A stretch of 39,990 nucleotides of DNA, taken from positions 1 to 39,990 of the forward strand of contig CALDTL010000024.1 of NCBI GenBank assembly GCA_937923965.1. Reading direction: 5' to 3'. The notes beneath the pieces were generated by a model that had not been told where the DNA came from, searched no databases, and saw only the letters and a program-made list of their open reading frames with translations. The first letter of the stretch is position 1. Every line of letters begins with the position of its first letter. This document shows positions 1 through 39,990 of this stretch, piece after piece. The DNA comes from an uncultured Caulobacterales bacterium (GTDB taxonomy: Bacteria > Pseudomonadota > Alphaproteobacteria > Caulobacterales > Maricaulaceae). Both the position numbers and the translations under genes were made by a program.

Positions 1-1066
1 CGTCAAGTTAAGCGCCAGCACAGCTGATTTATATTACGACACGATCACAGAGGCCCTTCAAACAGAGGCCTTCCGCCCTCGCTCTATTTTAGACACCTTC
101 AATGTGGAGTTCATCGCCACAACGGAAGGCGCAACTGATACGCTTCCCCACCATGACAAAATTATCCGTGACGGCTGGGGACATCGCGTCGTGACAACTT
201 TCCGCCCGGATGATGTCCTCGACCCCGATCATCACGGCTTTAGAAAAAACATTGAAAAAATAGGCGAACTCACCGGTCATGATAGTTTATCTTGGACAGG
301 ATATCTTTCGGCGCTGCGCGAGAGGCGCGGATATTTCAAAGCGCGCGGCGCAACAGCGACGGATCATGGACACCCAAGTCCTGCAACTCGAAATTTTTCG
401 ACTGCCAAAGCCGAAAGTCTCTTTCTAAAATGTCTAGCGGGTGACGCCGCAGCCTCTGAGCGCGAAGACTTCCGCGGGCAAATGCTGACAGAAATGGCGA
501 AAATGAGTCTCGATGACGGGCTCGTCATGCAACTCCACCCCGGCAGTTGCCGCAATCATAATCAATCGCTCTTTGAAACTTTCGGTGCGGATAAGGGCGC
601 CGACATTCCGAAACGTGTGAGTTACACAGACCATCTAAAACCGCTTCTCGATGTTGTCGGCAATGAAACGAATTTCAAACTCATCTTATTTACACTAGAC
701 GAAAGCAATTACGCCCGAGAGTTAGCGCCCCTTGCGGGTCATTACCCCTGCCTGCTGCTCGGCCCGCCGTGGTGGTTCCATGACAGCCCGGAAGGTATGA
801 TGCGCTTCCGCAGCCAGGTCACAGAAACCGCCGGATTTTACAATACAGCGGGGTTTAATGATGACACGCGCGCCCTACTCTCAATCCCTGCCCGTCATGA
901 CCTCGCCCGCCGGATGGATTGCCGCTTCCTGGCTGAACTCGTCTGTGAAGGCCGCATCGACCAAGATGATGCCGATGAAATCATCCAAGACCTTTCGGTT
1001 AATCTCGTCCGGCGCGCCTATAAATTACCGCAGCCTGCAGCAGTCAAATTATCCGCCGCCGAGTAG
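1..1066 (+). CDS. uxaC: Uronate isomerase (glucuronate isomerase), 5'-truncated by the window edge
   Basis: Isomerises D-glucuronate to D-fructuronate (or galacturonate to tagaturonate) in the cytoplasm, the entry step for saturated uronic acids. The reading frame is open from base 2, and about 354 C-terminal residues are visible, against roughly 470 for the family. Family-like stretches include FNVEFIATTE near the left edge, LHPGSCRNHN in the middle and GPPWWFHDSPEGM towards the end. The GTG at 104 is an internal valine (it corresponds to the FNVE segment), so it is not the start. In this locus the enzyme would process uronate released as a saturated sugar, complementing the KduI/KduD route for unsaturated uronate. 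The downstream FGE gene is convergent, 53 bp away. The family call is firm; the substrate (glucuronate rather than galacturonate) is inferred from context. Confidence 0.9.
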   Translation, partial: VKLSASTADLYYDTITEALQTEAFRPRSILDTFNVEFIATTEGATDTLPHHDKIIRDGWGHRVVTTFRPDDVLDPDHHGFRKNIEKIGELTGHDSLSWTGYLSALRERRGYFKARGATATDHGHPSPATRNFSTAKAESLFLKCLAGDAAASEREDFRGQMLTEMAKMSLDDGLVMQLHPGSCRNHNQSLFETFGADKGADIPKRVSYTDHLKPLLDVVGNETNFKLILFTLDESNYARELAPLAGHYPCLLLGPPWWFHDSPEGMMRFRSQVTETAGFYNTAGFNDDTRALLSIPARHDLARRMDCRFLAELVCEGRIDQDDADEIIQDLSVNLVRRAYKLPQPAAVKLSAAE

Positions 1067-1119
1067 ACCTGCGGAATAGCTAGGGCAATATGCGCACAAC
1101 TGAGGGCGCCCGAAAATCA

Positions 1120-2088
1120 TCAGTCTTTGGCCGTTTTAACTGTCCTAAATCCAATATGATTGGTCGAAAAATCGATCTCTTGTGGTTGACGGGCCGATGC
1201 ACGATACCGGCGACAGAAATTCTCGGCACACAGGAAGGACCCGCCCTTTATAGTATGGACCGGATTAGACCCCGGACTACCCCAAGGTGTATCCGTCCAT
1301 TCCCAGACATTACCAATCATATCATATAACCCATAAGCATTGGGGTCGTAACAGCCAACAGGAGACCGTAGATGATATCCATCCTCTCGTGTATTCTGGA
1401 TTGGGAATGCGCCCTGCCAAGTATTTGCCATCTCGTTTCCATCAGGCGATTTTTCACTTCCCCAAACGTATAATGTGTCTGCTCCGGCCTTTGCCGCATA
1501 CTCCCATTCTTCCTCCGTCGGCAGTCTGCGTCCTGCCCATTGCGCAAAAGCGCGGGCATCATCCAGCGTAACTTGAACAACAGGATGCGTCTCACGTCCG
1601 ATTATGGAACTCTCTGGGCCTTCGGGGTGACGCCAGTTTGCCCCCTCCACAAAGCGCCACCATGAAGGATGTGTTGCTGTTGGTTGAATAAAAACCGCGC
1701 CGCCTGGAACGTCGAAACCCGGTTGAATTTTTTCTGCTTCGGTTAAATAGCCCGTCGCCTCAATAAAGCTTTGGAATTGAACATTGGTGACTTCAACGGC
1801 ATCTATTTCAAAAGCGTCAAGTTTAACTCGGCGCGTTGGGCGTTCTTCAGGATACGCATCATTTGATCCAATGATGCCGCTCACTTTATCCAGCCTTATT
1901 GGACTTGGTAACACGTCCAAACAGACCTGCTGAGGCATCGCGTCAGCTATTTTGACTTCGCCGCGCTCGGGAGGGTTACAGCCTTGCAAGATAATTGATG
2001 CTAAAATTATAGGTCGATAGTCAAAATCCAAGCGCACTTTTCGGGGCTCCAGCTTCGCAATTATTGACGTAATTTCAGTGAAAAACAT
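1120..2088 (-). CDS. Formylglycine-generating enzyme (sulfatase-modifying factor), putative lipoprotein
   Basis: Oxidises the active-site cysteine of S1 sulfatases to formylglycine and so activates them. The 322-residue protein is an FGE-sulfatase (SUMF1) domain from about residue 70 to the end: an EVTN..F entry motif near 99, RLPTEEEWEYAA near 188, GNVWEWT near 259, and a C-terminal GGSFLCAENFC segment. Cys287 and Cys292 have the five-residue spacing of the two copper-binding catalytic cysteines of true FGEs, so this is likely an active enzyme and not just a C-type-lectin-fold relative. A short hydrophobic run ends in LQGC (Cys37), which may be a lipobox and would place it in the envelope. 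The N-terminus is uncertain: the ATG at 2088 lacks a good ribosome binding site and about 22 residues precede the hydrophobic run. The two S1 sulfatases at 15984 and 25709 are the obvious clients. Confidence 0.88.
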   Translation of the reverse strand: MFFTEITSIIAKLEPRKVRLDFDYRPIILASIILQGCNPPERGEVKIADAMPQQVCLDVLPSPIRLDKVSGIIGSNDAYPEERPTRRVKLDAFEIDAVEVTNVQFQSFIEATGYLTEAEKIQPGFDVPGGAVFIQPTATHPSWWRFVEGANWRHPEGPESSIIGRETHPVVQVTLDDARAFAQWAGRRLPTEEEWEYAAKAGADTLYVWGSEKSPDGNEMANTWQGAFPIQNTREDGYHLRSPVGCYDPNAYGLYDMIGNVWEWTDTPWGSPGSNPVHTIKGGSFLCAENFCRRYRASARQPQEIDFSTNHIGFRTVKTAKD

Positions 2089-2220
2089 ATATCAAACGAC
2101 AAGAAAAAATAGCGGTTTTACCTTTTCTAACATCAAATAATCAAGCATCGACCATATTCAGATGGGTAACCTTAAGGCCATGAGGCTCTGCATAGTCGTT
2201 AGTTTACCGCACCTTTTTAC

Positions 2221-3669
2221 TCAATCGGGATCTTTAAGTCTGACGACTGGCCCATTGTCGCCAACTAAATACATACGGCGCCATTCAGAGCCGTCTGGTT
2301 TTTCCGCGATAATCATTCGCGCGTCAGGATGTGCATTTTTAATGAAGGCACTTGCGGCCGAACCTGGACTGTCGAGATTACTTAACGACTTTGGTCTGGT
2401 TAGTATTTCGTCTCCTGGCGCCACTTTGAAATCCCCAAACTCCAACAAGACATCTCCGCGGGTGAAGCTTTGTCCGGAGTTTTGACTTTCCCACCAGCCC
2501 ACCTTGGTTTTATTTGTCTTCGGATCAATTCCGCTCAGGAGAAAGCGCACAGACTCTCCGTCGACTAAAAAGTCACCGCGCCCTATCGGTAATCCGTTTT
2601 TTACATCACCAACCCAGCCCTCACCATTCCACGCAAAATAACTCGCATGTTTCGGTCCGCCTATTTGCCAGCCTATATCCTCACCAATATAAGCGTTAAT
2701 GTGAGGCATCCCGCTGGCATCAACTTTCGTCATCCCATTGAACGTCCACATTTCGCCCGTATTTACCGCTAGGGCTTTTTCATCCGCGACGTCTTTTGTG
2801 ATGGGGAGTTGTAACGCTTCGCCGGTGACATTGCTCCAAATATTATTCTTTGTATCGAACTTCGCGAAATATAGATTTTTACGTTCCGTCGAATGTCCAC
2901 CCCGATTGTTGCGCGGCGCGCCTCTGTCCCAACAATAGTGATAGTCAAACCCTATCACAATTTCGTCGTTCAACCCCTTAGACACCGAAGCATACCAACT
3001 GTCACTGCCGATATCATCGTCGCGGCGTTTTGATTTTAAAAATGAAACAGGCTTTGCAAATGTCAGTCCGTTATCAACGGACTTTTGATAGACCCAGTCA
3101 CTGCGATGCGCCCCATGGCGGTAAAACAGATAGATATCACCATTATCCATTTTAATCGCCTGATTGTAAGTCCCGAAGGGAGGCACATTATTCAGATCCC
3201 TCCAACTCGTGATATCATACGGGTTTAGCGAGACAGCATGGCGATTTTCACCTGAATGATGACCTCCCAAAGAGTTGTCTCCATGGAGCAATTTATCGCC
3301 GCCATGTCCTCCGTAAAATATGTGAATATAGCCCTCATCATCGATAATCATTGTGGGTTTGCCATGGCTGTCGATTTTCTTTGTAGGGTCCTTGCCAAGT
3401 ATGCTGGTACCCGCCTGAAAGGGGCCGTTCCATGTTCCGTTTTGATGATTATAAGCGGCGACATAAGGGTCTTCATTGGGGCCTTGATAAGCGACATATG
3501 TAATCCCATTAACATGTTCTCCCGCCGGATGCTGCACGACCGCAACACCCTCTCCAAATCCATTTTCAGCAAAATAGGGTGTCGTAGCATCGCCATTTGA
3601 TGGGTTGGGTGAACAGCCCGCGAGAAAAATAAATATACTACCCAACAGGCCTTTAGATATTTTGTTCAT
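2221..3669 (-). CDS. BNR_4-repeat polysaccharide lyase-like lipoprotein, candidate ulvan lyase (PL24/PL25-like)
   Basis: Predicted to cut the rhamnose-uronate bond of ulvan by beta-elimination, leaving an unsaturated uronate. I chose the ATG at 3669 because GAGGAAA precedes it and a lipoprotein signal follows directly (hydrophobic run ending LAGC, Cys19). The mature part is one BNR_4-type beta-propeller domain (482 residues in all). Candidate catalytic residues are His122 in a GGHGG loop, His144 after GGHHSGEN, the YRHGAHRSDW segment near 183-192 and YHY near 243-245. Known PL24/PL25 ulvan lyases use two histidines with a tyrosine and arginine, and the spacing here is compatible. A paralogue begins at 39491. 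The gene is divergent from the DUF5060/GH3 pair, with an operator-like motif between them. Alternatives are another BNR_4 polysaccharide-active family; the exact PL family cannot be fixed by eye. Confidence 0.75.
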   Translation of the reverse strand: MNKISKGLLGSIFIFLAGCSPNPSNGDATTPYFAENGFGEGVAVVQHPAGEHVNGITYVAYQGPNEDPYVAAYNHQNGTWNGPFQAGTSILGKDPTKKIDSHGKPTMIIDDEGYIHIFYGGHGGDKLLHGDNSLGGHHSGENRHAVSLNPYDITSWRDLNNVPPFGTYNQAIKMDNGDIYLFYRHGAHRSDWVYQKSVDNGLTFAKPVSFLKSKRRDDDIGSDSWYASVSKGLNDEIVIGFDYHYCWDRGAPRNNRGGHSTERKNLYFAKFDTKNNIWSNVTGEALQLPITKDVADEKALAVNTGEMWTFNGMTKVDASGMPHINAYIGEDIGWQIGGPKHASYFAWNGEGWVGDVKNGLPIGRGDFLVDGESVRFLLSGIDPKTNKTKVGWWESQNSGQSFTRGDVLLEFGDFKVAPGDEILTRPKSLSNLDSPGSAASAFIKNAHPDARMIIAEKPDGSEWRRMYLVGDNGPVVRLKDPD

Positions 3670-3788
3670 ATCAAATTTCCTCACGCGATCGCTTAGCTTA
3701 ATCTGAGCTGGGGTTGCCAAAACCAAACCCTCAAATATCCACAAATTATAAGAGCCGGGGCAACTCACGGAATGATTACATCACTTTC

Positions 3789-3933: not shown

Positions 3934-6447
3934 ATGAAACAGCATACACAATCGAAAATACTGGCTGGTTTTTTCTCTATCTTCTTGATTTTCTTGGCAC
4001 CCAAAGCTCTCGCGCATGAGATTGAGAGTACCGACACGCTCTTTGAGCGCATGACGTTATCAATAGAAGGCCCCACCTCAGATGAGCGCGGCGAGATCAA
4101 TCCATTTTCAGACGTGCGTCTTGATTGGATAATTTCTAAAGGCGATAAAACATGGGCCGTTCCTGGGTATTTCGCAGCTTGCGGGGATGCCGCAAATACA
4201 GGCTGCACATCGGGCAATATTTGGCGCGCTCATTTTATCCCTTCCGAACTAGGCGAGTATGAATGGACTATAAGGTTCCGCAAAGGCACCGATATCGCTA
4301 TTCGCAATCCCGCAGGAACCCCTGTGGAGGGCGACGGACTTGAAGGGGAATTTTCTATCGACCGTCAATCTAGCGACCCCATCACAGCAAGGGGCACGCT
4401 CGCCTACACAGGGGAACAATATTACCGATATTCTGGTGACGATAGCCTGTTTTTCAAATTTGGGCCTGACGCACCTGAGAATATGCTGGCCTATTCTGAA
4501 TTTGACGCCACGCCGAATTACAAATCTTTTCGCAAAGATTGGGAGGCCCACCGCAAAGACTTCACGGCTAAGGGCCGTCCTTTTCTTTGGCGAGATGAAA
4601 AGGGCAAAGGCATATTAGGCACGTTTGAATATCTGGCCAAAGCAGGCGCAAATTCCGTCTCTATGTTACTCTGGAACACTGGCGGAGATGACCGCAACGT
4701 CTTCCCTCACCTCTTGGCGGTTGACGCGGATGACTATGTTTCAATGAAGCCCAAGAAACAATGGGAGTCTGGTGTTATTCAAGACAGGTTTGACGTTTCC
4801 AAATTGGAACAGTGGAAGCAAACATTCTTATATGCCGACTCACTGGGCATCCATTTGCATTTCAAACTTCAGGAAACAGAAAATAATCTATTTATGGATG
4901 ACAGTGCGCTCGGACGCACACGAAAGCTCTATATCAGAGAAATGATGGCGCGTTTCGGACACATGTTAGCGCTGAGTTGGAACATAGGCGAGGAGAACGT
5001 CCAGCACCCTGGCGATATTCGCCATATGAAAAAATACATTGCCGCTTATAATATCTACAACCACCCTATCGTTCTACACAGCTACCCCGACCAGAAAGAG
5101 CGGTATCGCCCGTTTCTGGGGGCTAACTCCGATTTAAACGGACTAAGTCTGCAGGGCCGCCAGGATGACTACTCAGATCTTCGCAGCGACGTCGTAGGCT
5201 GGGCGAACACCGTCAAACTCGCAGGCAAAAGTTTAGTTCTATCATATGACGAGCCGGGCCGCGCGGATGGCGGGGCAACGGTGGATATTGACTATCCCGA
5301 CGCATTGCTGCCCTCGAAGCGAGAGATCACTATTCCCGCAAAGCAGTTCCTGCGCGATGCCCTTTGGAATGCTCTGACAGCCGGCGCGAGCGGTGTGGAA
5401 GCTTATTATGGATATAAAACGGGATGCAGTGATTTAGACTGCCAAGATCACCGGACACGCGCGAGCCTCTGGCGCGGCGGAAAACACGCTTTGCATTTCT
5501 ATCAGAAATATGTGGGCGAAAAAGCCGTGGACATGCGGGCAAATGATGATGTGACCGTCGCCACCGACGACTATGTTTTCGCTAATCCGGGCGAGTTTTA
5601 CGTGATTATCCCGGGCGCCGAGGATGTCCAGCTACGGCTTGCGGGGATGCAAGGCAAATATATCGTTGATTGGTATGATCGCGACATGGGAGGCGAGTTA
5701 CAAAAGGGGTCAAAACCGTTTGTTCTCGGCGGCGCAAGCTCCATAACTGACCGAAATCGCAGGCGGCAGGGACCGTCAGCCGTTTCACTCGGTAACCCGC
5801 CATCAGGCGGAAGTGGACAATGGGCCATTATGGTGACGAGGTCTGGAGAAAATGACATTCGCGTTGAAGCGGAAGATTTCGTCACGCAGCGCCTCACAGA
5901 TAAACGAAAATGGTGCCGAAAGAAGGACTGCCCTGCAGACTGGCAAAACATTACGCCCGGAACAGAAGAGTATATCGCCATTACGCCCGACACACGATTG
6001 TCCCATGATGACCGCTTGATCCGGGGAGAAAATTTCACGAATAAACCAGGAAAGATGGCGGTTATCTCTTATGATGTTGACTTTCCGATGGCAGGTCGGT
6101 GGTATGTATGGGTCCGCACGTTCAGCAGAGGTAGCGAAGATAATAGTGTTCATGTTAGCTTGAATGGAGACTGGCCTGAAAGCGGCGCGCGGATGCAATA
6201 TTGCCCCGGCCGCAACCAGTGGTATTGGGACAATCGTCAACGCACCATTGAAGACCATTGCGGTGTCATTGGCGGAATATGGATAGACGTCCCCTCAGCT
6301 GGTCAACACAGCGTAGAATTTTCAATGCGCGAAGATGGTTTTGTCATGGACGCATTCTATCTCACGCTAAGTAGCCGAATGCCCGCCATCCTTCAAAAAG
6401 AGAATGATCAATCTAAATCCACTGAGATGAGAAAATACCATGAATAG
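3934..6447 (+). CDS. DUF5060-containing TIM-barrel glycoside hydrolase-like protein, secreted
   Basis: Probable secreted glycosidase of 837 residues; the activity is unknown. Residues 1-28 are a Sec signal with an ALA cleavage site. Residues about 35-145 look like a DUF5060 beta-sandwich (IWRAHFIPSELGEYEWTIRF). Residues about 160-600 look like a (beta/alpha)8 barrel. Candidate catalytic acids are Glu353/Glu354 in SWNIGEEN and Glu440 in LSYDEPGR, the layout expected of a retaining clan-A-like enzyme. From about 640 to 830 is a beta-rich module (RVEAEDF... then FSMREDGFVMDAFYLT) resembling carbohydrate-binding domains of marine polysaccharidases. The GH3 start codon lies inside its last codons, so the two are translationally coupled and probably act on the same fragment. 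Family-level GH assignment was not possible from the sequence alone. Confidence 0.75.
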   Translation: MKQHTQSKILAGFFSIFLIFLAPKALAHEIESTDTLFERMTLSIEGPTSDERGEINPFSDVRLDWIISKGDKTWAVPGYFAACGDAANTGCTSGNIWRAHFIPSELGEYEWTIRFRKGTDIAIRNPAGTPVEGDGLEGEFSIDRQSSDPITARGTLAYTGEQYYRYSGDDSLFFKFGPDAPENMLAYSEFDATPNYKSFRKDWEAHRKDFTAKGRPFLWRDEKGKGILGTFEYLAKAGANSVSMLLWNTGGDDRNVFPHLLAVDADDYVSMKPKKQWESGVIQDRFDVSKLEQWKQTFLYADSLGIHLHFKLQETENNLFMDDSALGRTRKLYIREMMARFGHMLALSWNIGEENVQHPGDIRHMKKYIAAYNIYNHPIVLHSYPDQKERYRPFLGANSDLNGLSLQGRQDDYSDLRSDVVGWANTVKLAGKSLVLSYDEPGRADGGATVDIDYPDALLPSKREITIPAKQFLRDALWNALTAGASGVEAYYGYKTGCSDLDCQDHRTRASLWRGGKHALHFYQKYVGEKAVDMRANDDVTVATDDYVFANPGEFYVIIPGAEDVQLRLAGMQGKYIVDWYDRDMGGELQKGSKPFVLGGASSITDRNRRRQGPSAVSLGNPPSGGSGQWAIMVTRSGENDIRVEAEDFVTQRLTDKRKWCRKKDCPADWQNITPGTEEYIAITPDTRLSHDDRLIRGENFTNKPGKMAVISYDVDFPMAGRWYVWVRTFSRGSEDNSVHVSLNGDWPESGARMQYCPGRNQWYWDNRQRTIEDHCGVIGGIWIDVPSAGQHSVEFSMREDGFVMDAFYLTLSSRMPAILQKENDQSKSTEMRKYHE

Positions 6448-8806
6448 ACGTGATATTTTGAAAAATATTGGAGCTACGGGGGCTGGAAGTGTTGCCCTTA
6501 CCGGCGCTGGTTGTGCAGGGGGAGAAATGTCAAGCGCATCGTCCAAACTCGATTTCAGGGATGCCTCTTTTTCCCCGTCACAACGGGCAAAAGCGCTCAT
6601 CTCTCAAATGACTCTTGAAGAAGCCGCCGCTCAATTAAATTGCCCCCGCGCCGCCGATGTCATGGCTGACCCGGATACTTTCCAATCTAATCACCCCTAT
6701 TTTGAATTTGGCATTGGCGGCGTTTACTCCGCTAGCCTAGATGCGGGACCTGCAGAGAACGCGCGGGCCGTCATAGCATTACAAGAGGCTGTTATTGAGC
6801 GTAGCAGATTTGGTATCCCTGCCTTTATCTTCGAAGAATGTCTTGCTGGCTTATTGGCGACAGGGGCAACTCAGTTTCCGCAAGCTATGGCCATGGCATG
6901 CGCCTTTAACCCCGCCTTAGTCGAAAAGGTTTTCAGTGCCACAGCGGCGGAGGCCCGGTCGCGCGGGTCGCAGGCCTGCTTCTCTCCCAATATAGATGTC
7001 TGCACAGACCCGCGTTGGGGACGCTCAGAAGAAACTTGGGGCGAAGATCCTTATGTGATTTCGAAATCTGCGAATGCTATTATCAAAGGCTTGCAAGGCG
7101 AAAAATCCGACTATTTGGCCGAAGATAAAATGGCCGTTAGCCTCAAACATTATGCCGGATATGGCCAAGGTATCGGTGGTCGCAATTTTGCGCCCTCTCA
7201 TATCGGCCCCGTCGAACTTCAAAATGTGACACTCGCCCCCTTCAGAACAGCCGTAAAGGACTCCGGCGCGATTGGCCTCATGGCCTCACACGGAGAGATT
7301 GACGGTGTTCCTGCCCATGCAGATGTCACGCTTTTGGATGACACGCTTCGCCGAGATTGGGGTTTTGATGGATATGTTGTCTCCGACTGGGACGACATAC
7401 GCCGAATCTATAGCCTTCACGGCGTGGCGGGCTCAGAAGCTGACGCGGCCATCATGGCCTTAAAGGCTGGTGTTGATATCGAGCTTGCGAACAATGGTGT
7501 TTACATGATGCTGCCGCAGCTCGTGCGCGACGGTAAAGTGAGTGAAAGTTTCGTGCGGCGCGCGGCCGAACGCATCTTGCGGGCGAAGTTCAAATGCGGG
7601 CTTTTTGACATGCCATTGGCCAAACCTGACCTCGCGCAACGACTTGCTCGCAATACCCCGCACAAAGCCCTCGCGCGCAAAATGGCCGAAGAATCAGCGG
7701 TTCTGTTGAAGAACGAAGGCAATCTCTTGCCGCTGAACCCAGAGAAAAAACAGCGTATCTTGGTTGTAGGGCCTAATGCCGCCTCGGTGCATCTCGGCGG
7801 ATATTCTCCGAAACCTCATCAGGGCGTCAGCCTGCTCGAGGGTATCCGTGACTATGCATCTGGCCGCGACATTGAGGTCGTCTACGCACCGGGCTGTAAA
7901 ATTACGGTTGGCGGTGAAGGCAATAATGAGATCGAAACAGACGCCGATGACACAGCTAGGTTTGCCTCTGAGGAAAGTAACCGTAAACTGATTGCTGAGG
8001 CAGCTGCTATGGCCCAGACCGCTGACACTATCATTTTAGCGGTTGGCGGTAATGAGCATACGGCGAGAGAAGCCTATTTCGCAGGTGACTCTCGCGGTGA
8101 CCGAGATGACATCGATCTATTTGGCGATCAGAACCAACTGATCGCAGCGCTTGTTGGGACCGGTAAGCCTATGGCGGCTGTCTTGATACATGGGCGCCCC
8201 TTATCCCCTCAATTGCTCGCGAAAGAATGTCCGGCCATTCTCGACGTCTTTTACCCAGGTGAAGAAGGTGGTCATGCCATTGCGAGACTATTATTTGGCG
8301 ACGTTAATCCCAGCGGTAAGTTACCCGTTACATTGGTTCGAAATGTGGGCCAAATTCCGGGGTTTTACTACCAACAACCCACGGGGCGATTCCGAAATTA
8401 TGTTGCGTCGGACTCAACCCCGCTATTCCCGTTCGGACATGGGCTGAGTTACACGAGTTTCGATGTTAGCGCCCCGCAAGTTCAAAGCGCCGAAGTGTCC
8501 GTGAACGGTGAGATTAAAGTAACCGCCCGTGTAAAAAACACCGGACGTCGGTTTGGCCAAGAAGTTGTCCAACTTTACATCCGAGATGAAATCGCGAGCC
8601 GTGCCCGGCCTATAAAGCAACTTCGCGGTTTTCAGAAAGTCGCATTGGAGCCCGGCGAAGAGCGCCAAGTGGAGTTCACCTTGGGTCCAAAGGAATTTGG
8701 CTTTTATGATGCGGATGGAAAGCTACTTTTAGAGCCCGGAAAACTGAAACTAATGGTCGGTGCAAATAGTCAAGAGCTGAAAAGTGTGACCGTGGCGCTC
8801 ACATAA
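6440..8806 (+). CDS. GH3 family glycosidase (candidate beta-xylosidase/beta-glucosidase), Tat lipoprotein
   Basis: Removes terminal beta-linked sugars; in an ulvan locus beta-xylose is the likely target, but beta-glucosidase is possible. The 788 residues start with a twin-arginine signal (MNRRDILKN) followed by a lipobox-like GAGC, so export is probably by Tat with lipid anchoring. The N-terminal GH3 barrel carries KHYAGYG near 235 and the nucleophile motif GYVVSDW with Asp316. The second domain starts near 425 (AEESAVLLKNEGNLLPL), and a fibronectin-III-like domain (QEVVQLYIRD to the end) closes the protein, which is the standard three-domain GH3 layout at normal length. The ATG overlaps the end of the upstream gene by 8 bases. 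It converges on the DeoR gene, leaving 42 bp between them. Confidence 0.9.
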   Translation: MNRRDILKNIGATGAGSVALTGAGCAGGEMSSASSKLDFRDASFSPSQRAKALISQMTLEEAAAQLNCPRAADVMADPDTFQSNHPYFEFGIGGVYSASLDAGPAENARAVIALQEAVIERSRFGIPAFIFEECLAGLLATGATQFPQAMAMACAFNPALVEKVFSATAAEARSRGSQACFSPNIDVCTDPRWGRSEETWGEDPYVISKSANAIIKGLQGEKSDYLAEDKMAVSLKHYAGYGQGIGGRNFAPSHIGPVELQNVTLAPFRTAVKDSGAIGLMASHGEIDGVPAHADVTLLDDTLRRDWGFDGYVVSDWDDIRRIYSLHGVAGSEADAAIMALKAGVDIELANNGVYMMLPQLVRDGKVSESFVRRAAERILRAKFKCGLFDMPLAKPDLAQRLARNTPHKALARKMAEESAVLLKNEGNLLPLNPEKKQRILVVGPNAASVHLGGYSPKPHQGVSLLEGIRDYASGRDIEVVYAPGCKITVGGEGNNEIETDADDTARFASEESNRKLIAEAAAMAQTADTIILAVGGNEHTAREAYFAGDSRGDRDDIDLFGDQNQLIAALVGTGKPMAAVLIHGRPLSPQLLAKECPAILDVFYPGEEGGHAIARLLFGDVNPSGKLPVTLVRNVGQIPGFYYQQPTGRFRNYVASDSTPLFPFGHGLSYTSFDVSAPQVQSAEVSVNGEIKVTARVKNTGRRFGQEVVQLYIRDEIASRARPIKQLRGFQKVALEPGEERQVEFTLGPKEFGFYDADGKLLLEPGKLKLMVGANSQELKSVTVALT

Positions 8807-14350: not shown

Positions 14351-14445
14351 ATGGCTTCCTATTTGCTGAGAAGATCTGAAATCATTGGATTTCAATGGAC
14401 AAGTCTAAGTCAGTCTAGCAACTACAGCCCACCGCACTCAATTTC

Positions 14446-14471: not shown

Positions 14472-14565
14472 TTTTGCTAAGAGCTACTAATTTTAACTTT
14501 GTGTTGGCAGGTTCTTCGAAATCTAAATTACTCGCTAACAAATCATGCAAAGAAGGTCTGAAGAT

Positions 14566-17432: not shown

Positions 17433-17611
17433 AGTCTCAACCCCGCACGAATTATGCTGCGTATATTTGCGCAATATTGACTAAACCTAACGCTATCATC
17501 TGTATGAGCAAACAGGAAAACATAAAAATAATGAATTATAACTTCCTTTGTTTCGAAGGATAATCGGCTTTGGCACGTTAGTTATTATGAGCCAGATGGA
17601 GATTGGAATAA

Positions 17612-18964: not shown

Positions 18965-18966
18965 AC

Positions 18967-25686: not shown

Positions 25687-25708
25687 ACAAAGTAAAAGAG
25701 ATTTATTG

Positions 25709-32308: not shown

Positions 32309-32309
32309 G

Positions 32310-32846: not shown

Positions 32847-33844
32847 GCGCGCGACTCCAGCGCTTCCACCTGCTTGATGAGCGGACCTAACTCTGTCTCT
32901 GCAAAGCGGGCCTTCATCGGCGCAACGGCATCGCGAAAAGGTTGTTTATCAGGATAAATAATTTCAACACCAGCTTTGGCGACCTCTGAAAGCGCCTCAG
33001 CTTCAGCCTCAGCCCAAAGTTCACGCTGGTAGGTAACAGATTTCGCCATGGCTTCGCGAACCCAGCCCCGCTCATTTTCTGTCAATCCGTCATAAACGCG
33101 CCGAGACATGATAACGAGGTCAGGCACTGAGGTATGTTCATCCAGCGTGTAATATTTAGCGGTCTCAAAATGCTTAGACAAATAGTAAGAAGGCGGATTA
33201 TTTTCTGCACCATCCACAATGCCCTGCTGCAAAGCGGTATAAAGCTCGCCCCAGGAAATTGGTGTCGCTGCGCCGCCTAAGGCTTCGACCATCTCAATGG
33301 ACGTACGACTTGGCAGCACGCGTACTTTCTTGGACACAAGATCAGCAGGCGTGCGTACGGGGGCGTCTGTCATGTAAAAACTGCGGCTCCCAGCATCGTA
33401 ATAGCCGAGCCCCTGAAGGCGAACATCGCGCAAGGTGTTTAAAAGAGAACTTCCGATATCACTATTCAGGACCCGCCAAAAATGAGCGCTATCTTGGAAA
33501 AGATAGGGAATAGAGAAAAGCTTCATCTTGGGCGAGAAGCCTTCCATTGAAATGGTTGAAACTTTGGTCATCGCCAATGCGCCGATTTGCAAAAGCTCAA
33601 TCAATTGCCGCTCACTCCCGAGCTGGCCATTTGGGTAGACATCAACACCCATAGCGCCGCTCGAAAGCTCCGTTAATGTTTCTCCCATAAAAACCATAGC
33701 TTTGTGTACTGGGTGATCACCATTTAACGTATGGGCGAGTTTTAGCCGTGTGCCTGACGTGATTTTCGCTGAGCACCCAACGAGGCCTAGGCCAAGGCCT
33801 GCACTCGCTCCGGTCGTAAAACGTCGCCGTGAAATCAGTGTCAT
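32843..33844 (-). CDS. dctP: TRAP transporter solute-binding protein (DctP-type)
   Basis: Periplasmic solute-binding subunit of 333 residues. Family features are LKLAHTLNGDHPVHKA near 34, DVYPNGQLGSERQLIELLQIGALAMT near 64, KVRVLPSRTSIEMVEALGGAATPISWGELYTALQQGIVDGAENNP near 172-216, which includes the conserved Arg of the carboxylate-binding site. The N-terminus has a twin-arginine motif (ISRRRFTTG) and a lipobox-like LVGC (Cys24), so it may be Tat-exported and anchored, an unusual arrangement for TRAP binding proteins. The 5' end overlaps the DUF4861 stop by four bases. Confidence 0.92.
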   Translation of the reverse strand: MTLISRRRFTTGASAGLGLGLVGCSAKITSGTRLKLAHTLNGDHPVHKAMVFMGETLTELSSGAMGVDVYPNGQLGSERQLIELLQIGALAMTKVSTISMEGFSPKMKLFSIPYLFQDSAHFWRVLNSDIGSSLLNTLRDVRLQGLGYYDAGSRSFYMTDAPVRTPADLVSKKVRVLPSRTSIEMVEALGGAATPISWGELYTALQQGIVDGAENNPPSYYLSKHFETAKYYTLDEHTSVPDLVIMSRRVYDGLTENERGWVREAMAKSVTYQRELWAEAEAEALSEVAKAGVEIIYPDKQPFRDAVAPMKARFAETELGPLIKQVEALESRA

Positions 33845-34809
33845 TTGTTTAATTTACGTTGCTGATCATCCACCCAAGCCATGAAACTCTCTTTATCCGA
33901 AATACCCATTGGTCCCTGCTCCCACACACCTGCAAAAGCATATGTCGGGCTCGGCGTATTAAAACGAATAGGATAAGTATCGTTCACACTTGGCATGAGC
34001 CTGGCATCACCATCTCGGTAGAAAAGCACGGCTCCTAGGCCATCTTTCGCTTCACTCTGCTTATCACCCCATGTTGCGATATAACGCCATTCGCCCTTCT
34101 TAACGGTGTTACTGTTGCGGAAACGCTGATTCCCCTCATAATTAACAAGTCCAGACGCCAAGGTCGCATTCGGCATTAAGGACTCTACTTTTACCCATGT
34201 CAGAGGACTCCCACTTTCTATTGAGTAAGTCGCGTCGACTTGCCCCATACGGCCATCACCCAATGGAACATTACCGTGCATGACTTTAAAGGATGCGCTG
34301 TCACCCCGCTCTTTCAAAACCCTGGCCGACACGGCTGCATCGGGTCCAAACCTTTCAAGACTATCTCCGCGATATAACCCGAGCCCTCCAACGCCCATAC
34401 TTGGCCCAACTTTCATGACATCCATACCCCAATCCGCCATGGAGTGGTAATCATTACGATAATCGACTTTATCTAACGCTATGCCAGGTGTTTTCTTTCC
34501 GAAAATATCCGTAACCGACCGCTCATCTAGATATAATCTGTAACCCACAATTTCATTTTCCCACCCGATACCTTCATAAGGAAAAATTTTGTCGCCGACC
34601 TTGTGATTTTCTGGAACGTTTACAGAGGTTCTAGGGGTAAATATCGGATCGGATACGAGCACATCAGACACACGAAGGTCTACACTCGCCAAACCCGTAG
34701 TGGCCATTTGGCCTGCTTGGTCAATCGATGCACATGAAGACAACAACCCTAAGGCCAAGACGCCCGTAACGCGCAAAGAAACCTTAAATTTTTTCAATAC
34801 ATTCTGCAC
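33841..34809 (-). CDS. DUF4861 family lipoprotein
   Basis: Function unknown. The 322 residues match the DUF4861 family, which recurs in loci for uronate-rich polysaccharides. A lipoprotein signal ends SSC (about Cys26). Recognisable stretches are EGIGWENEIVGYRLYLDERSVTDIFGKK (residues about 78-105) and HSMADWGMDVMKVGPSMGVGGLGLY near 121-145. The start is a GTG at 34809 with AGGGA six bases upstream. First gene of the operon DUF4861-dctP-dctQ-dctM-kduD, coupled to dctP by ATGA overlap, and so probably processes the transported substrate in the periplasm. Confidence 0.8.
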   Translation of the reverse strand: MQNVLKKFKVSLRVTGVLALGLLSSCASIDQAGQMATTGLASVDLRVSDVLVSDPIFTPRTSVNVPENHKVGDKIFPYEGIGWENEIVGYRLYLDERSVTDIFGKKTPGIALDKVDYRNDYHSMADWGMDVMKVGPSMGVGGLGLYRGDSLERFGPDAAVSARVLKERGDSASFKVMHGNVPLGDGRMGQVDATYSIESGSPLTWVKVESLMPNATLASGLVNYEGNQRFRNSNTVKKGEWRYIATWGDKQSEAKDGLGAVLFYRDGDARLMPSVNDTYPIRFNTPSPTYAFAGVWEQGPMGISDKESFMAWVDDQQRKLNK

Positions 34810-35053: not shown

Positions 35054-35887
35054 ATGGAAATTCGTTATTCTGCGGACATCGTCCGATACAAAACTATGAC
35101 CAATAAGGAATTGCGCGATACGTTCGTGATTGACTCGCTTTGGGGTGAAGACGCAGTCCCCCTCGTTTACTCTGATATTGATCGCGGCGTAATCGGGTCA
35201 GCTGTGCCTGTGACCAAGGCTTTGGAAATCCCGACACATAAGGACCTCGCGAGCGACTACTTTGCCCAACGACGAGAAGTTGGCGTTATAAATATTGGCG
35301 GCGCGGGTAAAATAGAAGTCGACGGTGTTGTTTACGACATGTCTAATTTGGACAGCCTATATATTGGGCGCGGCTCAAAAGGTATCAAATTTTCAAGTGA
35401 TAATGGGACAACCCCTGCCAAGTTTTACTTCGTGAGTTACCCCGCACACATGCGTTACGAAACGCAGCATATCAAAAAATCTGATGCCAATGTCGTCAAA
35501 CTGGGCGCCAGCGAAACCAGTAATAAACGGGTTATTTTCCAACCTATTCACCCGGATATTGTCAAAACCTGTCAGATTGTCATGGGTTTCACGATGCTCG
35601 AATCTGGCAATGTTTGGAATACTTTCCCGCCCCACACGCATAAACGTCGGTCTGAGTTTTACATGTATTTTGACTTATTGGATGACGATGCACGAGTTTT
35701 TCACTTCATGGGAGAGGCAGATAATATGAAGCCCATGATCCTTAAATCGGGCGAAGTCGCGCTCTCCCCAATCTGGTCTATGCATTGCGGCGCGGGCACA
35801 TCAGCCTATACGTTTATCTGGTCAATGGGCGGTGAAAACCAAGTCTTTGACGATATGGATCATATTAAACAAAGTGATATAGCCTAA
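35054..35887 (+). CDS. kduI: 5-dehydro-4-deoxy-D-glucuronate isomerase
   Basis: Isomerises 5-dehydro-4-deoxy-D-glucuronate, the linear form of the unsaturated uronate released by GH105, to 2,5-diketo-3-deoxygluconate. The 277 residues equal the family's normal size. The cupin metal site is visible as His194, His196 and Glu201 in TFPPHTHKRRSEFYMYFDL, with His244 in SMHCGAG. An AAGGG ribosome binding site precedes the ATG. It is divergent from the TRAP/kduD operon, so the two kdu steps are served by adjoining transcripts under a shared upstream region. Confidence 0.95.
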   Translation: MEIRYSADIVRYKTMTNKELRDTFVIDSLWGEDAVPLVYSDIDRGVIGSAVPVTKALEIPTHKDLASDYFAQRREVGVINIGGAGKIEVDGVVYDMSNLDSLYIGRGSKGIKFSSDNGTTPAKFYFVSYPAHMRYETQHIKKSDANVVKLGASETSNKRVIFQPIHPDIVKTCQIVMGFTMLESGNVWNTFPPHTHKRRSEFYMYFDLLDDDARVFHFMGEADNMKPMILKSGEVALSPIWSMHCGAGTSAYTFIWSMGGENQVFDDMDHIKQSDIA

Positions 35888-35923: not shown

Positions 35924-38900
35924 CTACTCTTTCACCGACCCAATGATATGAACAGGTCCAATGAGCCCTGAGGGTAATAGCTCATCTTCTTGTGTATAGA
36001 AGTCAGCTGTCGTGAATGTCACCCTTTCTCCCAGATTGGGCGGCCTGTTTTCACTATACCAGGCTGGCATTTTTTCCTTGGGCGGCGTTTGTGTTAGAGT
36101 CGTCCACTTGGCCGGCTCAAATCCATCAACATCAGATAATGACGCATCACCGATTAGCCTATTCACCCATAAATTCACGACAGAAATCGATATGGAATTT
36201 TGTCCCGGCTTGAGGGATTTTGAAATATCTATTTGGTGTGGCGCAAGCCAGCTTGTGCCCTGCTCCACCCCATTTACGCTTACCGTCGCTGCAATTTGCA
36301 CATCTCCCAAATCAAGCATGAGTTTATCGCTCGATTTTAACAAATCCTCTGTGACATCAAATTCAGCCTTATAGAGCGCGGGGCCGGAATAATGTTTGAT
36401 ATCAAAATCATCATCATCCGCCCAATCTATCAATCGGTCCAACTTTATAGTTTTATCGGCGCCATAATCAGGATCAAAACTCACAGTCCAAGGCCCCTTA
36501 ACTTCGACTTTGGACGTAACGGTAAACGGCTTTTCTATTTGCGTATCCTGAACAGGGTCATCCCCGTCAAACATTACGAAAACGGACTCTCGGGGCCCTA
36601 ACGTTAAATCGATCACCGTATGGTCGCCCATGACGGAGTAAGACTCTACACCGTCAACGGAGCCGTCCATCGCATCCCAAAGCGAAATCTCTTTTCCGGT
36701 TACTCTGAACTTTGCCGTCAACTTCTGAGCGTCTTTCCCCGGATTGTGAACAAAATAAATATCGTGTACACCCAATTCCCTATGGGCGAATAAAGCCTCA
36801 GCCTGTCCTACAATCTCAAAATCAGGCTTATAATTGATGGATTTCAAAAAACTCTGCCAGCTAGTGGCTTCGATGTCCGCAAGCGGAACCACTCGATCAC
36901 GCGCCCAAATCTCGTTAACTTGTTTTGCGAAAGCCTCACGTTCATCCAAGCTCGCCTCAAATCCGGCAAGCTCTGCCGGAGGGTTTCCGATTATTATCCC
37001 GCCTGATTCTTTTGATAATTCATCAAGCGCGTCGAGAGAGCTTTGTGTCAGAGTGTCACTATTTTCTAGAATAATAAATTTATGAGCGCCGCCCTCGGGC
37101 AGGCTAAATACACCATCTCTGGCCTTGAGCCGATTTTTTAAAACATCCGAATTTAAGCAAATGAAATTAATGGAGAACGGAACGCTCTCCGTTACTTCCT
37201 TATCTGGACATATGCTCGGCGAACCATCGCCAACAAACAGAAGCGCGTCATTCACCGGAATACCTTGGCGCAAGATATGTTGACCGCGAGCCAAATATGA
37301 AAACCACTCTGCCCCTGCACCATCCCACCAAGTTTGCGTCCGATCGAAATGGCTTCCCCAGCGGTTCATTGTCATACCGGGCTTCACATGTGTATTGGCT
37401 TGATGGGCAAAACGGTGGAACATAAATTCATTCACACCCAGCGCCCAATTCGTATCCCCAAGCGTCTTGACGTAAGCGGGGTGGAGCTTCCAATTCGTGT
37501 TCCAGATATCCGTAAAAGCCTCAGCGGAGACAATAGGTTTTCCATAGAGAGCCGATGATGACACGGCCACGTTGACCCTATTTCCGAAATGATTGACCCA
37601 AAACTCACCCATAGGAATGTCAGCTTTGCTACCAGCATCAAGCTCATTAAATGGCCCGTCACCATAAGGCTCAATGTAAACCTGTAAGCCATCAGCATTC
37701 GCAAGCTCGGTAAAATACCCGTAGTAGTTTTCTCTCATCAAATCATTAGATAGATCGCGCAGATCCCATGTGACACGCTCGGCAACCTCAGGACTATCTA
37801 CAAATCGACCCGCAAAGAGAGGCAGGAATGGAATAAGACTGTAACCTTTTTCTTCCTTAAAAATCGCGTCATAGCCTGTCGTCCAATTTTGCGCTGCCAC
37901 TTCATAGCTGTCAATTTCTGTGTATTGATGCGCGTTGGGCGCGACATCTTTCACGGCTTGAACAACTTTACCCATATACGCATCATAGTGGATTTTCAGA
38001 GCTGGGCGGCTAAACTTATCAACTTCGAGGCCAACACCTTCCTCAGATGCGGGTAAGTTTTTTGCACCTGTGGACGTCTGGCCAAAGCGCATAATGGTCC
38101 ACTCACCTTCGGGTAACTGCGCCCTAAGCCGTCCGCTCGCCTGCAAGCTGCTGGACAAATCAATGACCGAGGTTGAATCGATGACCGACGCTGCTGGCGC
38201 TAAACCGATAGACGGCAAGTCACTATAAACTGTTTTTGCGGACCCAGTACGCCCCCAAAAATTTCCGATCGAAGCGACAGAAGATAGTTCAACCTCTTGG
38301 ACATCCAACGGCACCTCTGTTTGCAAACGGAAGTAACGCGCGGTTACTGGCGCGGTTAATGCCTCATCATTTCCCCAGTCATTTTTCGCGGGACGCCGTA
38401 AGGCAAGATTTTGCACTGGCGTATAACTTATGCCGTCATCAGATGATAATAGAAGCGTATTCGCCCGGCGTGCATTCATAAAACGAAATCTGATCGACTG
38501 AAGCGAAAATGGCTTGGTATACTCAAAATCGATAAAAGCCGGTTTGTCTTGGGTTGCCTCCAATCGTGTTGTCCCGATGACAGAACCGTCAGTAATTAGA
38601 TCTATATCTAGATCAGATTGGGACGATGTGACTTTAGGGCGATTATCGACCATCTCTTTTTCGCTTGGAAGACGCGGATAGGCAATGGTCGCGATATCTT
38701 CGTAATAGTTTTCAAGCTTATCTGGCTGCGGAAGAATAATATCTACAACACCGCCGCCGCTCGCAGCTGTTTCTGACCATACCACTTTTTTCATTGAGAT
38801 TTCAGGCGAAATCCAAGGGCCGCCCGATGACGTCCAACCATCGCAATTATGGACTCCAAAAGATAAGCCAAATCTTTCTGCTTCAGACGCCATATGCGCG

Positions 38901-39226
38901 ACAAGCTCTAGATGTTCCTCGGAGTTGAACTTTACAGGCCCTATTGGAATACCCTGCGTGACATTAAAGAGTAATACACCCCCAATTCCCACGGACTCTA
39001 TAGATTCCAGATCCTTGGTAATGCCCGCTTTGGTCATGTTACCACTCATCACGTGGAACCACGTCCGCGGGCGCGAGCTATTAGGCGGAGCTAAAAATTC
39101 AATTTGTAATGCTTCAAGTGAGGTTGAGCCGTCGTCTATAATTTCGGGAGACGAGCACCCTAAGAGCGCCGCTGAAATTACAGCCTGAAAGACGACTTTA
39201 CTTTTTGCAATCACACCGTCCCGCAT
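35924..39226 (-). CDS. GH106 alpha-L-rhamnosidase, lipoprotein
   Basis: Releases alpha-linked L-rhamnose, supplying the Rha pathway. The 1100 residues have a lipoprotein signal (ALLGC, Cys24), then the GH106 barrel start (RPRTWFHVMSGNMTKAGITKDLESIESVGIGGVLLFNV, about 53-90) with FGVHNCDGWTSSGGPWI near 122. A discoidin-like inserted domain (about 205-320) interrupts the barrel. Candidate catalytic acids lie in QVYIEPYGDGPFNELDAGS (about 510-530) and VSAEAFTDIW. A C-terminal GH2-like beta-sandwich occupies about 900-1095. The size is normal for the family. A GAGAG site precedes the ATG. It diverges from the second BNR_4 lyase gene and shares its regulatory region. Confidence 0.88.
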   Translation of the reverse strand: MRDGVIAKSKVVFQAVISAALLGCSSPEIIDDGSTSLEALQIEFLAPPNSSRPRTWFHVMSGNMTKAGITKDLESIESVGIGGVLLFNVTQGIPIGPVKFNSEEHLELVAHMASEAERFGLSFGVHNCDGWTSSGGPWISPEISMKKVVWSETAASGGGVVDIILPQPDKLENYYEDIATIAYPRLPSEKEMVDNRPKVTSSQSDLDIDLITDGSVIGTTRLEATQDKPAFIDFEYTKPFSLQSIRFRFMNARRANTLLLSSDDGISYTPVQNLALRRPAKNDWGNDEALTAPVTARYFRLQTEVPLDVQEVELSSVASIGNFWGRTGSAKTVYSDLPSIGLAPAASVIDSTSVIDLSSSLQASGRLRAQLPEGEWTIMRFGQTSTGAKNLPASEEGVGLEVDKFSRPALKIHYDAYMGKVVQAVKDVAPNAHQYTEIDSYEVAAQNWTTGYDAIFKEEKGYSLIPFLPLFAGRFVDSPEVAERVTWDLRDLSNDLMRENYYGYFTELANADGLQVYIEPYGDGPFNELDAGSKADIPMGEFWVNHFGNRVNVAVSSSALYGKPIVSAEAFTDIWNTNWKLHPAYVKTLGDTNWALGVNEFMFHRFAHQANTHVKPGMTMNRWGSHFDRTQTWWDGAGAEWFSYLARGQHILRQGIPVNDALLFVGDGSPSICPDKEVTESVPFSINFICLNSDVLKNRLKARDGVFSLPEGGAHKFIILENSDTLTQSSLDALDELSKESGGIIIGNPPAELAGFEASLDEREAFAKQVNEIWARDRVVPLADIEATSWQSFLKSINYKPDFEIVGQAEALFAHRELGVHDIYFVHNPGKDAQKLTAKFRVTGKEISLWDAMDGSVDGVESYSVMGDHTVIDLTLGPRESVFVMFDGDDPVQDTQIEKPFTVTSKVEVKGPWTVSFDPDYGADKTIKLDRLIDWADDDDFDIKHYSGPALYKAEFDVTEDLLKSSDKLMLDLGDVQIAATVSVNGVEQGTSWLAPHQIDISKSLKPGQNSISISVVNLWVNRLIGDASLSDVDGFEPAKWTTLTQTPPKEKMPAWYSENRPPNLGERVTFTTADFYTQEDELLPSGLIGPVHIIGSVKE

Positions 39227-39271
39227 TGATTATTTCTCTCTCAAATTATGAATGCGCATTTATGCTTGATA

Positions 39272-39293
39272 ATGATTATTTCTGCGTTATTAT
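39272..39293 (+). promoter_or_regulatory. Operator-like motif between GH106 and the second BNR_4 lyase gene
   Basis: TGATTATTTCTGCGTTATTA begins at 39273 and matches the copy at 23360 in TGATTATTT and TGCG. It lies 46 bp from the GH106 start and 198 bp from the lyase ATG. The rest of the 264-bp region 39227-39490 shows nothing else I can support. Confidence 0.6.
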
Positions 39294-39490
39294 TGGGTTA
39301 TAGACTGGGACTCTAACAATCAAGCGAAAGATACGAGTCCTGGCTTTAATCAATAAGACGAGAGCTTCAGTGTTGTGGAAACCTCGCTTGCAATCGCCGG
39401 GGCCTTTGAGCCTGCTTTCAAGAAAAGTGAGCCGTCTAGATCTGATTAAGCAGGATGAGATTAAAGCCCGGGCAGAAGGAACCTAATATC

Positions 39491-39990
39491 ATGAAAAAAC
39501 TCGCATTAACCTTTGGCGTAGCCTTAAGCGCCCTATTGGCTGCATGTTCGACCCCTAGCGATATTCCCAACGTGCAATCTTCACAGAAAGTCGCCCCAGC
39601 ACAAAAATCGGCCGAGGCAAAAAAAGTGGATCATTTTGCCGAGAATGGCTTTGGGAATGCGGTTGCTATTATTCAACATCCCGCCGGGATTCACAAAGAT
39701 GGTATTACTTATGTTAGCTATCAGGGCGCGTTAGAGGACCCCTATGTTGCGGCCTATAACCACGACACTGAGGAATGGACTGGTCCGTTCAAAGCTGGCG
39801 TCAGCATAATGGGCAAAGACCCGAGCCGAAAAATAGATAATCACGGTAAACCATCGATGATTATTGATAATGCTGGTTACATCCACATCTTCTTTGGCGG
39901 CCACGGCGGCACCCCAGAACAACATGGCGATAATCCTTTGGGTAATCATCATTATGGTGAGAATAAACACGTCGTCAGTAAACGCCCGCT
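39491..39990 (+). CDS. BNR_4-repeat polysaccharide lyase-like lipoprotein, 3'-truncated by the window edge
   Basis: Paralogue of the gene at 2221. The first 166 residues are present: a lipoprotein signal (LLAAC, Cys17), a linker rich in Ala/Lys/Gln, then FAENGFGNAVAIIQHPAG, DPYVAAYNH, KAGVSIMGKDPSRKIDNHGKP and YIHIFFGGHGG, all shared with its relative. By hand, about two-thirds of the 120 aligned residues are identical, and both candidate catalytic histidines (the GGHGG loop and ENKH) are kept. AGAAGGAACC just upstream is a good ribosome binding site. Two related lyases could differ in preferred uronate (glucuronate or iduronate) or chain length; that is inference. Confidence 0.8.
   Translation, partial: MKKLALTFGVALSALLAACSTPSDIPNVQSSQKVAPAQKSAEAKKVDHFAENGFGNAVAIIQHPAGIHKDGITYVSYQGALEDPYVAAYNHDTEEWTGPFKAGVSIMGKDPSRKIDNHGKPSMIIDNAGYIHIFFGGHGGTPEQHGDNPLGNHHYGENKHVVSKRP

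Follow-up and report, generated by a model that had tools for sequence, protein, structure and literature searches.

The 39,990-bp stretch analysed here (the window) is the whole of contig CALDTL010000024.1 (C24), one of 223 contigs in a 2,796,114-bp metagenome-assembled genome (MAG; 91% complete, 3% contamination) of an uncultured Caulobacterales bacterium. Its genes very probably form a locus by which a marine alphaproteobacterium utilises ulvan, the sulfated cell-wall polysaccharide of the green seaweed Ulva. An ulvan lyase, a sulfatase, an unsaturated uronyl hydrolase, a rhamnosidase and an outer-membrane receptor are all encoded in the window (Table 1). Systems of this type are known; what appears new from the sequences is an alphaproteobacterial lineage with a conserved architecture and, more tentatively, a candidate exo-lyase step and transporter.

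Characterised PL25 members cleave ulvan. The sequence-only reading of this DNA had proposed two to three lyase-like BNR_4 proteins, and had named their falling outside families active on rhamnose-uronate polymers as evidence that would speak against ulvan. Three are present: two fall in PL25, one of them cut at the contig end, and the third is of the GH145 type. PL25a matches the solved structures 5uam (533 bits) and 5uas (530 bits) over residues 58-510, the third match reaching only E 0.45. In PLSV_3936, the catalytic residues are His123, Tyr188 and Arg204, the zinc ligands His208, His264, Cys266 and His278, and the substrate-binding residues Asn122, Lys125 and Tyr246 (PMC13193363; this and other papers are cited for the passages of their text drawn on here); this numbering differs from that of the structure chain by a constant offset of 24. 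The catalytic residues are conserved in both copies (His135/Tyr201/Arg217 in PL25a, His130/Tyr196/Arg212 in PL25b), as are all four zinc ligands, and PL25b retains all three substrate-binding residues. With the lipobox as guide, both leaders look lipoprotein-like by eye.

After PL25, the strongest pointer to ulvan is the GH105 protein, whose nearest solved relative, 4ce7, is named 'unsaturated 3S-rhamnoglycuronyl hydrolase' (206 bits; runner-up 164) and presumably comes from an ulvan degrader. Much else in the sequence-only reading is borne out. Both S1 sulfatases carry CSPSR, a form of the sulfatase motif CxPxR, and are accompanied by one activator of the formylglycine-generating enzyme (FGE) type; GH3, GH105 (GH88/105) and GH106 are recognised by Pfam, and the three subunits of a tripartite ATP-independent periplasmic (TRAP) transporter, KduI and KduD are present. 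The rhamnose genes form the rhizobial-style set that had been proposed, with a TIGR02629 isomerase, an aldolase/dehydrogenase, an FMN enzyme of the lactate dehydrogenase type, a DeoR regulator and an FGGY kinase. The kinase is the weakest assignment of this set: its role as rhamnulokinase rests on position, because its best NCBIfam match, L-fuculokinase, lies far below cut-off. UxaC, DUF5060, DUF4861 and DUF1800/DUF1501 proteins and an NCS1-like symporter add to the earlier list.

The locus is not a chance grouping, because 24 of the 26 window genes recur in each of two other genomes of the window's family. One, G198, is a single 3.45-Mb contig, of which 100 kb was examined (UxaC and KduI are not in the 100 kb); two contigs were examined in the other, G078 (FGE and DUF5060 are not in the two contigs). 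Identities range from 56 to 93%, and gene order is conserved in blocks that are themselves rearranged. G078 is 'Hyphomonadaceae bacterium isolate SS_bin_111' (JABDMW), in keeping with the alphaproteobacterial host suggested earlier. A scan of named genomes with two short peptide patterns found at least 36 PL25 loci, a lower bound, including loci in Caulobacterales, Hyphomonadaceae, Erythrobacter, Aurantiacibacter, Pontixanthobacter, Sphingomonadaceae, Alteromonadaceae and Bacteroidota. The better-covered Sphingomonadales PL25 loci share varying subsets of TRAP, DUF4861, NCS1-like, S1, KduI or KduD, GH105, FGE and DUF1501/1800 genes, and subsets of the window genes also recur in Alteromonadaceae PL25 loci. 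This common gene content, the retained residues of both PL25 lyases and the affinity of GH105 to 4ce7 together support the ulvan-type substrate proposed earlier.

The two lyases have different histories on a PL25 tree of 39 rows (midpoint root; the very distant rows L039_2 and L043_2 left out). PL25a and three other alphaproteobacterial rows (100/99) are nested in an otherwise Alteromonadaceae group (97/87 with one gammaproteobacterial row, 100/99 with two), a placement that makes transfer of PL25a between proteobacterial classes likely. PL25b groups elsewhere, within a clade of three rows that are all alphaproteobacterial (100/100).

The locus extends beyond the window. The last 141 bp at its right end recur exactly at the end of contig C86 and are absent from any third place in the genome; because this exact overlap occurs nowhere else, C86 very probably continues the window. 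The left end matches no other contig of the MAG, and ARAGORN finds no tRNA in the window. C86 (10,371 bp) completes the PL25b gene (484 aa) and also encodes a pectate-lyase-fold protein, a second TonB receptor, a GntR/FCD regulator, the D-mannonate dehydratase ManD (643 bits, cut-off 550) and a sodium:solute symporter. The absence of SusD that had been reported holds for the 26 window proteins, so that the SusC/SusD pair by which Bacteroidota-type polysaccharide utilisation loci (PULs) are recognised is not found; the 'single TonB receptor' is a contig-end effect, because C86 adds the second one. The 2-keto-3-deoxygluconate (KDG) kinase and aldolase steps, correctly described as absent from the window, were located on contig C36, which encodes a 2-keto-3-deoxy-6-phosphogluconate (KDPG) aldolase (PF01081, 215 bits) and an adjoining PfkB-family kinase that we read as KDG-kinase-like. 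Contig C99 carries a second cluster of the same kind (L017, G000:C99:1-15041), with GH78, GH106, GH2, an S1 sulfatase and a 646-aa heparinase-like protein. Its sulfatase is 65% identical to the G198 orthologue of sulfatase A, and its heparinase-like protein recurs at 54-62% in PL25 loci L048, L049, L064, L066 and L093. The whole MAG yields eight sulfatase matches, two being parts of one frame, and therefore seven genes. Outside the ulvan contigs, locus L018 (G000:C21:1-12000) encodes two further S1 sulfatases next to what look by eye like a GMC-type oxidoreductase and a DUF1080-like protein.

The sequences directly show the family memberships, the PL25 residues, the order of the genes and their conservation in two relatives; the scheme that we infer from them supplies the substrate, the compartments, the sulfatase positions, the exo-lyase step and the cargo of both transporters. 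The two PL25 lyases would cut the bonds between 3-sulfated rhamnose (Rha3S) and glucuronate or iduronate (GlcA/IdoA) by beta-elimination, and the TonB receptors would carry the unsaturated oligosaccharides to the periplasm. There GH105 would take off the unsaturated uronate and the formylglycine-activated S1 sulfatases would take sulfate off rhamnose, while terminal rhamnose would be freed by GH106 (with GH78 of C99) or by the GH145-type protein. If the latter is a lyase, its cut would expose a further unsaturated uronate, on which the GH105 of the neighbouring gene could act, and both enzymes would therefore alternate. Unsaturated uronate may enter through TRAP and pass via KduI and KduD to KDG, then through the KDG-kinase-like enzyme and KDPG aldolase of C36; saturated glucuronate may be handled by UxaC and the ManD of C86. 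Rhamnose would enter by the NCS1-like symporter and pass through RhaI, the kinase, the aldolase/dehydrogenase and the lactate dehydrogenase to dihydroxyacetone phosphate and pyruvate.

The NCS1-like protein, which belongs to no Pfam family at E<=0.001 and has only a 25-bit NCBIfam match (TIGR02358, cut-off 310), is a candidate L-rhamnose permease. Its predicted model (pLDDT 74, pTM 0.76) matches the folds of CodB (E 3e-10) and Mhp1 (E 5e-8), and on this model the protein has an NCS1 fold. CodB and Mhp1 carry cytosine and hydantoins, and the window gene heads not the rha genes but a run, defined by open reading frame (ORF) spacing, of NCS1-like, sulfatase B, GH145-type and GH105 genes (gaps 19, 3 and 11 bp), a spacing that ties the symporter to oligosaccharide finishing. 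Another cargo, be it unsaturated uronate, rhamnose sulfate or a nucleobase-like compound, is accordingly a serious contender, although the less favoured one when gene neighbours are considered. These were surveyed in 295 genomes of one family (including Glaciecola KUL10), 62 of which have a match at E<=1e-90, with 25 places at >=49% identity (close) and 47 at 41-44% (distant). Neighbourhoods were examined for 23 of the close and 24 of the distant places: 21 close and 19 distant ones with some 8 kb on either flank, less where a contig ends, and two close and five distant ones with about 9-10 kb. RhaK or RhaI lies near 20 of the 23 close homologues but near none of the 24 distant ones, and neither gene is near two distant places in another family (G737). 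The surveyed genomes are related rather than independent, and the counts therefore show association, not probability.

Several details of the survey bear on the choice between rhamnose and these other cargoes. Within the ~8-kb set, 16 of the 18 rha-positive loci have no PL25 nearby; in L143 and L145 the only query-set genes near the homologue are rha genes, and Glaciecola KUL10 has the order RhaI, NCS1-like, RhaK. The three close homologues with neither RhaK nor RhaI in the stretch examined (L131, L136 and L151) point the other way, but L151 carries rha genes and PL25a further away on its contig (L040); L136 begins at a contig end. Known rhamnose transporters are RhaT, an ATP-binding cassette (ABC) system and RhaY of the major facilitator superfamily, with no NCS1 member among those named in the cited passages (PMC3870299). 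The rhamnose ABC binding protein TIGR02637 has no match in the 91% complete MAG, in which RhaT was not searched for.

The GH145-type protein is probably an exo-lyase with a changed sugar subsite. GH145 is not a known ulvan lyase family: the nearest solved relatives are of the BT3686 type (152 to 133 bits), followed by a PL42 L-rhamnose-alpha-1,4-D-glucuronate lyase (48 bits), with Uly1 at 35 bits and the short ulvan lyases at <=20 bits. In BT3686-type enzymes, rhamnose hydrolysis is assigned to His48 of the posterior face, and release by the lyase site requires His90, Tyr143 and Arg333 of the anterior face, where His110 and a neutralising Arg are also conserved (PMC8377490, PMC8406133). We aligned six distinct sequences, from the window, G198, G078, Paraglaciecola algarum, Alteromonas aestuariivivens and a Paraglaciecola MAG, a count that omits the same-gene copies L007 and L069 and a 37% relative in L141. 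His48 occurs in none of them, being replaced by Gln or Arg (Gln72 in the window protein), while His90, His110, Tyr143 and Arg159, the neutralising Arg by our alignment, are conserved in all six. The alternatives of a genuine rhamnosidase and of a binding protein without catalytic activity are in our judgement less likely given these residues and the position of the gene, separated by 3 bp from the preceding sulfatase B gene and by 11 bp from the GH105 gene that follows. They draw their support from Arg333, which is absent from all six sequences (Glu, Ser, Asp or Ala under three MAFFT settings, in a weakly aligned region); the Arg333Ala mutant of BT3686 is inactive on arabinogalactan protein (AGP) from wine, and this loss is the main evidence against an exo-lyase. 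Because Arg333 is replaced, the sugar subsite differs from that of BT3686.

Taken together, the permease and exo-lyase proposals would mean that marine proteobacteria have a previously unassigned NCS1-family L-rhamnose permease. It would be encoded in ulvan loci with a GH145-clade exo-lyase that has a changed sugar-binding site; this enzyme would remove rhamnose from desulfated ulvan ends by elimination and thereby supply GH105, the two alternating without any need for a GH78 step or the P29 dehydratase. We advance this combination tentatively, as possible rather than probable. The locus suggests two functions open to test: that of an NCS1 permease for rhamnose, and a natural substrate of marine GH145-type lyases. 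Other substrates of these lyases are, according to PMC8406133, still to be identified.

That the locus targets another sulfated rhamnose-uronate polymer (a microalgal or exopolysaccharide rhamnoglucuronan, or sulfated AGP with Rha-GlcA caps), ulvan being merely a related substrate, is highly improbable: GH145-type, GH106, GH2 and GH3 proteins would equally suit sulfated AGP, and in Bacteroides plebeius GH145, GH105 and a sulfatase act on wine and seaweed AGP (PMC8406133), but the window has two PL25 lyases and a GH105 nearest a 3S-rhamnoglycuronyl hydrolase, TRAP, KduI/KduD, GH105 and sulfatase B recur in subsets across loci chosen for PL25, and no GH43 or GH16 family occurs among the proteins scanned (26 in the window, five on C86, four on C99). 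Some observations nevertheless weigh against the ulvan assignment or its completeness. PL25a has Ser at the substrate-binding position Asn122, its Lys125 and Tyr246 equivalents being kept; this is the sole deviation among the PL25 residues checked. The sulfatases are placed at the level of the S1 family and not of a subfamily (S1_7, S1_8, S1_25), and the best structural match of sulfatase A, 6hhm (155 bits), which we take to be an S1_7 ulvan sulfatase, scarcely exceeds a choline sulfatase (146 bits). GH3 and the FGGY kinase fall below every NCBIfam cut-off. The C24-C86 join depends on a 141-bp assembly overlap, and C36 and C99 are assigned to the organism by binning only, in a MAG with the contamination given above. 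PL25 (E<=1e-30) occurs in 3/398 sampled genomes of the order, the window's included and all three in its family, and in one of 12 listed genomes of its genus, the other 11 being without it; the trait is therefore not lineage-wide.

The locus resembles several described systems. PUL H of Formosa agariphila (Bacteroidota) likewise combines a lyase, GH105, S1 sulfatases, a rhamnosidase and GH3 in a cascade with Delta-Rha3S oligosaccharide intermediates, but it has PL28 and P10_PLnc lyases, a GH78-S1_25 fusion and the dehydratase P29_PDnc (PMC8511951), whereas the window has a PL25 pair, GH106, a GH145-type protein, TRAP and no SusD. Pseudoalteromonas marina PUA1001 has a putative ulvan locus, which a close relative lacks; this locus shares PL25, GH105, a TonB receptor, TRAP and rhamnose genes with the window and additionally has PL24, PL40, GH88, GH115, GH43 and GH39 (PMC13050008); the terms 'GH145', 'permease' and 'symporter' are absent from that text. 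Two PL25 lyases, rhamnosidases and monomer-processing genes are also found on the 126-kb ulvan plasmid of Alteromonas sp. 76-1, which differs in having three PL24 lyases as well; growth on ulvan is demonstrated for that strain (PMC6431674). The Bacteroides GH145 proteins BT3686 and BACPLE00338 share the BNR_4 propeller, PL25-like lyase residues, a GH105 partner and a sulfatase link (PMC8406133), but unlike them the window protein is without Arg333, and its context is PL25 with rhamnose and uronate catabolism rather than AGP. The rhizobial rhamnose operon has the same TIGR02629 isomerase, aldolase-dehydrogenase and DeoR regulator (PMC3870299); where it differs, the MAG gives no TIGR02637 match and the window locus has the NCS1-like symporter instead.

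The ulvan degraders named in the literature examined, within the passages used, are Bacteroidota and gammaproteobacteria. Among the matches listed, no title or abstract opening reports an alphaproteobacterial ulvan locus (open-access literature, supplements not covered), although 127 ulvan PULs have been predicted (PMC10233909) and alphaproteobacterial examples may already be tabulated with predictions of this kind. Members of the class, Hellea and Litorimonas among them, belong to the core community of Ulva surfaces (PMC10233909, PMC12304696). The conserved locus lies in an alphaproteobacterial family (one not shown to include Hellea), and some alphaproteobacteria are therefore predicted to digest the green-algal wall.

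Table 1. Genes of the window. The 26 larger proteins were scanned with Pfam and 19 of these with NCBIfam; KduD was scanned with NCBIfam separately.
Product	Position	Strand	Basis
UxaC, glucuronate isomerase, 5' end cut by contig edge	2..1066	+	NCBIfam NF002794 411 bits, cut-off 387
FGE-type sulfatase activator	1120..2088	-	PF03781 233 bits
PL25 ulvan lyase a (PL25a)	2221..3669	-	PDB 5uam/5uas; listed ORF start 3768, homologues begin at residue 34
DUF5060 protein, possibly glycosidase of unknown family	3934..6447	+	PF16586 45 bits
GH3 glycosidase	6440..8806	+	PF00933/PF01915/PF14310
DeoR-family regulator	8849..9658	-	PF00455, PF08220
FMN-dependent dehydrogenase, L-lactate dehydrogenase type (name from context)	9787..10932	-	PF01070 423 bits
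RhaI, rhizobial-type L-rhamnose isomerase	10938..12221	-	TIGR02629 686 bits, cut-off 647
Bifunctional rhamnulose-1-phosphate aldolase / short-chain dehydrogenase	12251..14395	-	TIGR02632 997 bits, NF006189 1136 bits, both above cut-off
FGGY kinase, presumed rhamnulokinase (RhaK-like)	14545..15975	+	PF21546, PF00370; best NCBIfam L-fuculokinase 61 bits, cut-off 471
S1 sulfatase A	15984..17474	-	PF00884 152 bits; best PDB 6hhm; CSPSR
DUF1800 protein	17612..18964	+	PF08811 377 bits; recurs in PL25 loci
DUF1501 protein	18967..20136	+	PF07394 111 bits; recurs in PL25 loci
TonB-dependent receptor 1	20183..23284	-	TIGR01782 431 bits, cut-off 310
NCS1-like symporter, candidate L-rhamnose permease	24028..25686	+	Fold match CodB and Mhp1; gene neighbours
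S1 sulfatase B	25706..27175	+	PF00884 204 bits; CSPSR; 52-55% homologues adjoin PL25 in gammaproteobacteria
GH145-type BNR_4 protein, predicted exo-lyase	27179..28591	+	BT3686 type, PL42; residue comparison
GH105 (GH88/105) unsaturated glucuronyl hydrolase	28603..29799	+	PF07470 224 bits; PDB 4ce7; start inferred inside listed ORF
KduD	30233..31000	-	TIGR01832 347 bits, cut-off 339
TRAP large subunit DctM	31010..32308	-	PF06808 399 bits
TRAP small subunit DctQ	32310..32846	-	PF04290 104 bits
TRAP solute-binding protein DctP	32843..33844	-	PF03480 257 bits
DUF4861 protein, supersandwich-like fold, first gene of TRAP run	33841..34809	-	PF16153 157 bits; model and fold search
KduI	35054..35887	+	NF002091 377 bits, cut-off 250
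GH106 alpha-L-rhamnosidase	35924..39226	-	PF17132 540 bits
PL25 ulvan lyase b (PL25b), 5' part	39455..39990	+	Completed on C86 via exact 141-bp overlap

Among the conserved proteins of less certain role, DUF4861 opens a second run by ORF spacing, followed by TRAP P, Q, M and KduD (4-bp overlaps; gaps of 1 and 9 bp), a spacing that ties it to uronate uptake. Its model (pLDDT 62, pTM 0.70) has no Foldseek match at E<=0.001. VIA-align gives Z 8.7-11.7 among the 50 matches listed. These include the supersandwich portions of enzymes from GH38, GH65 and GH95, of alginate lyases and of the PL40 lyase Uly1040 (Z 9.1); the unrelated YidC reaches about the same Z. The model suggests a beta-supersandwich fold without a nameable activity. 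No paper was found in the open-access literature under the name DUF4861. A role as ulvan dehydratase, considered on the presumption that P29_PDnc is a DUF4861 protein, was dropped: PMC8511951 describes putative dehydratases as predicted with PL37, and DUF4861 is absent from its text.

The DUF5060 protein, a possible unclassified glycosidase, has no PDB relative at E<=1. It is kept in three PL25 loci, its relatives in the two loci other than the window being 77% and 61% identical; part of it is 45% like a separate 415-aa protein of Alteromonas aestuariivivens (L057:1584-2831). PL25 loci of Erythrobacter, Pontixanthobacter and Glaciecola also have counterparts of the DUF1800/DUF1501 pair (17612-20136), at 37-42%. 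In another alphaproteobacterial PL25 locus (G482, L093:2300-3925), a 541-aa protein, BNR_4-like by eye, lies between DUF5060 and KduI. Both relatives of the window encode a 462-aa protein near GH106 (L030:12259-13644 and L034:17256-18641), with no NCBIfam match at E<=1e-5 and no window counterpart found. In G198, 81 residues encoded next to GH3 (G198:C1:764613-764855, L028) match the end of PL25a with 74% identity and are probably the remnant of a third PL25 gene.

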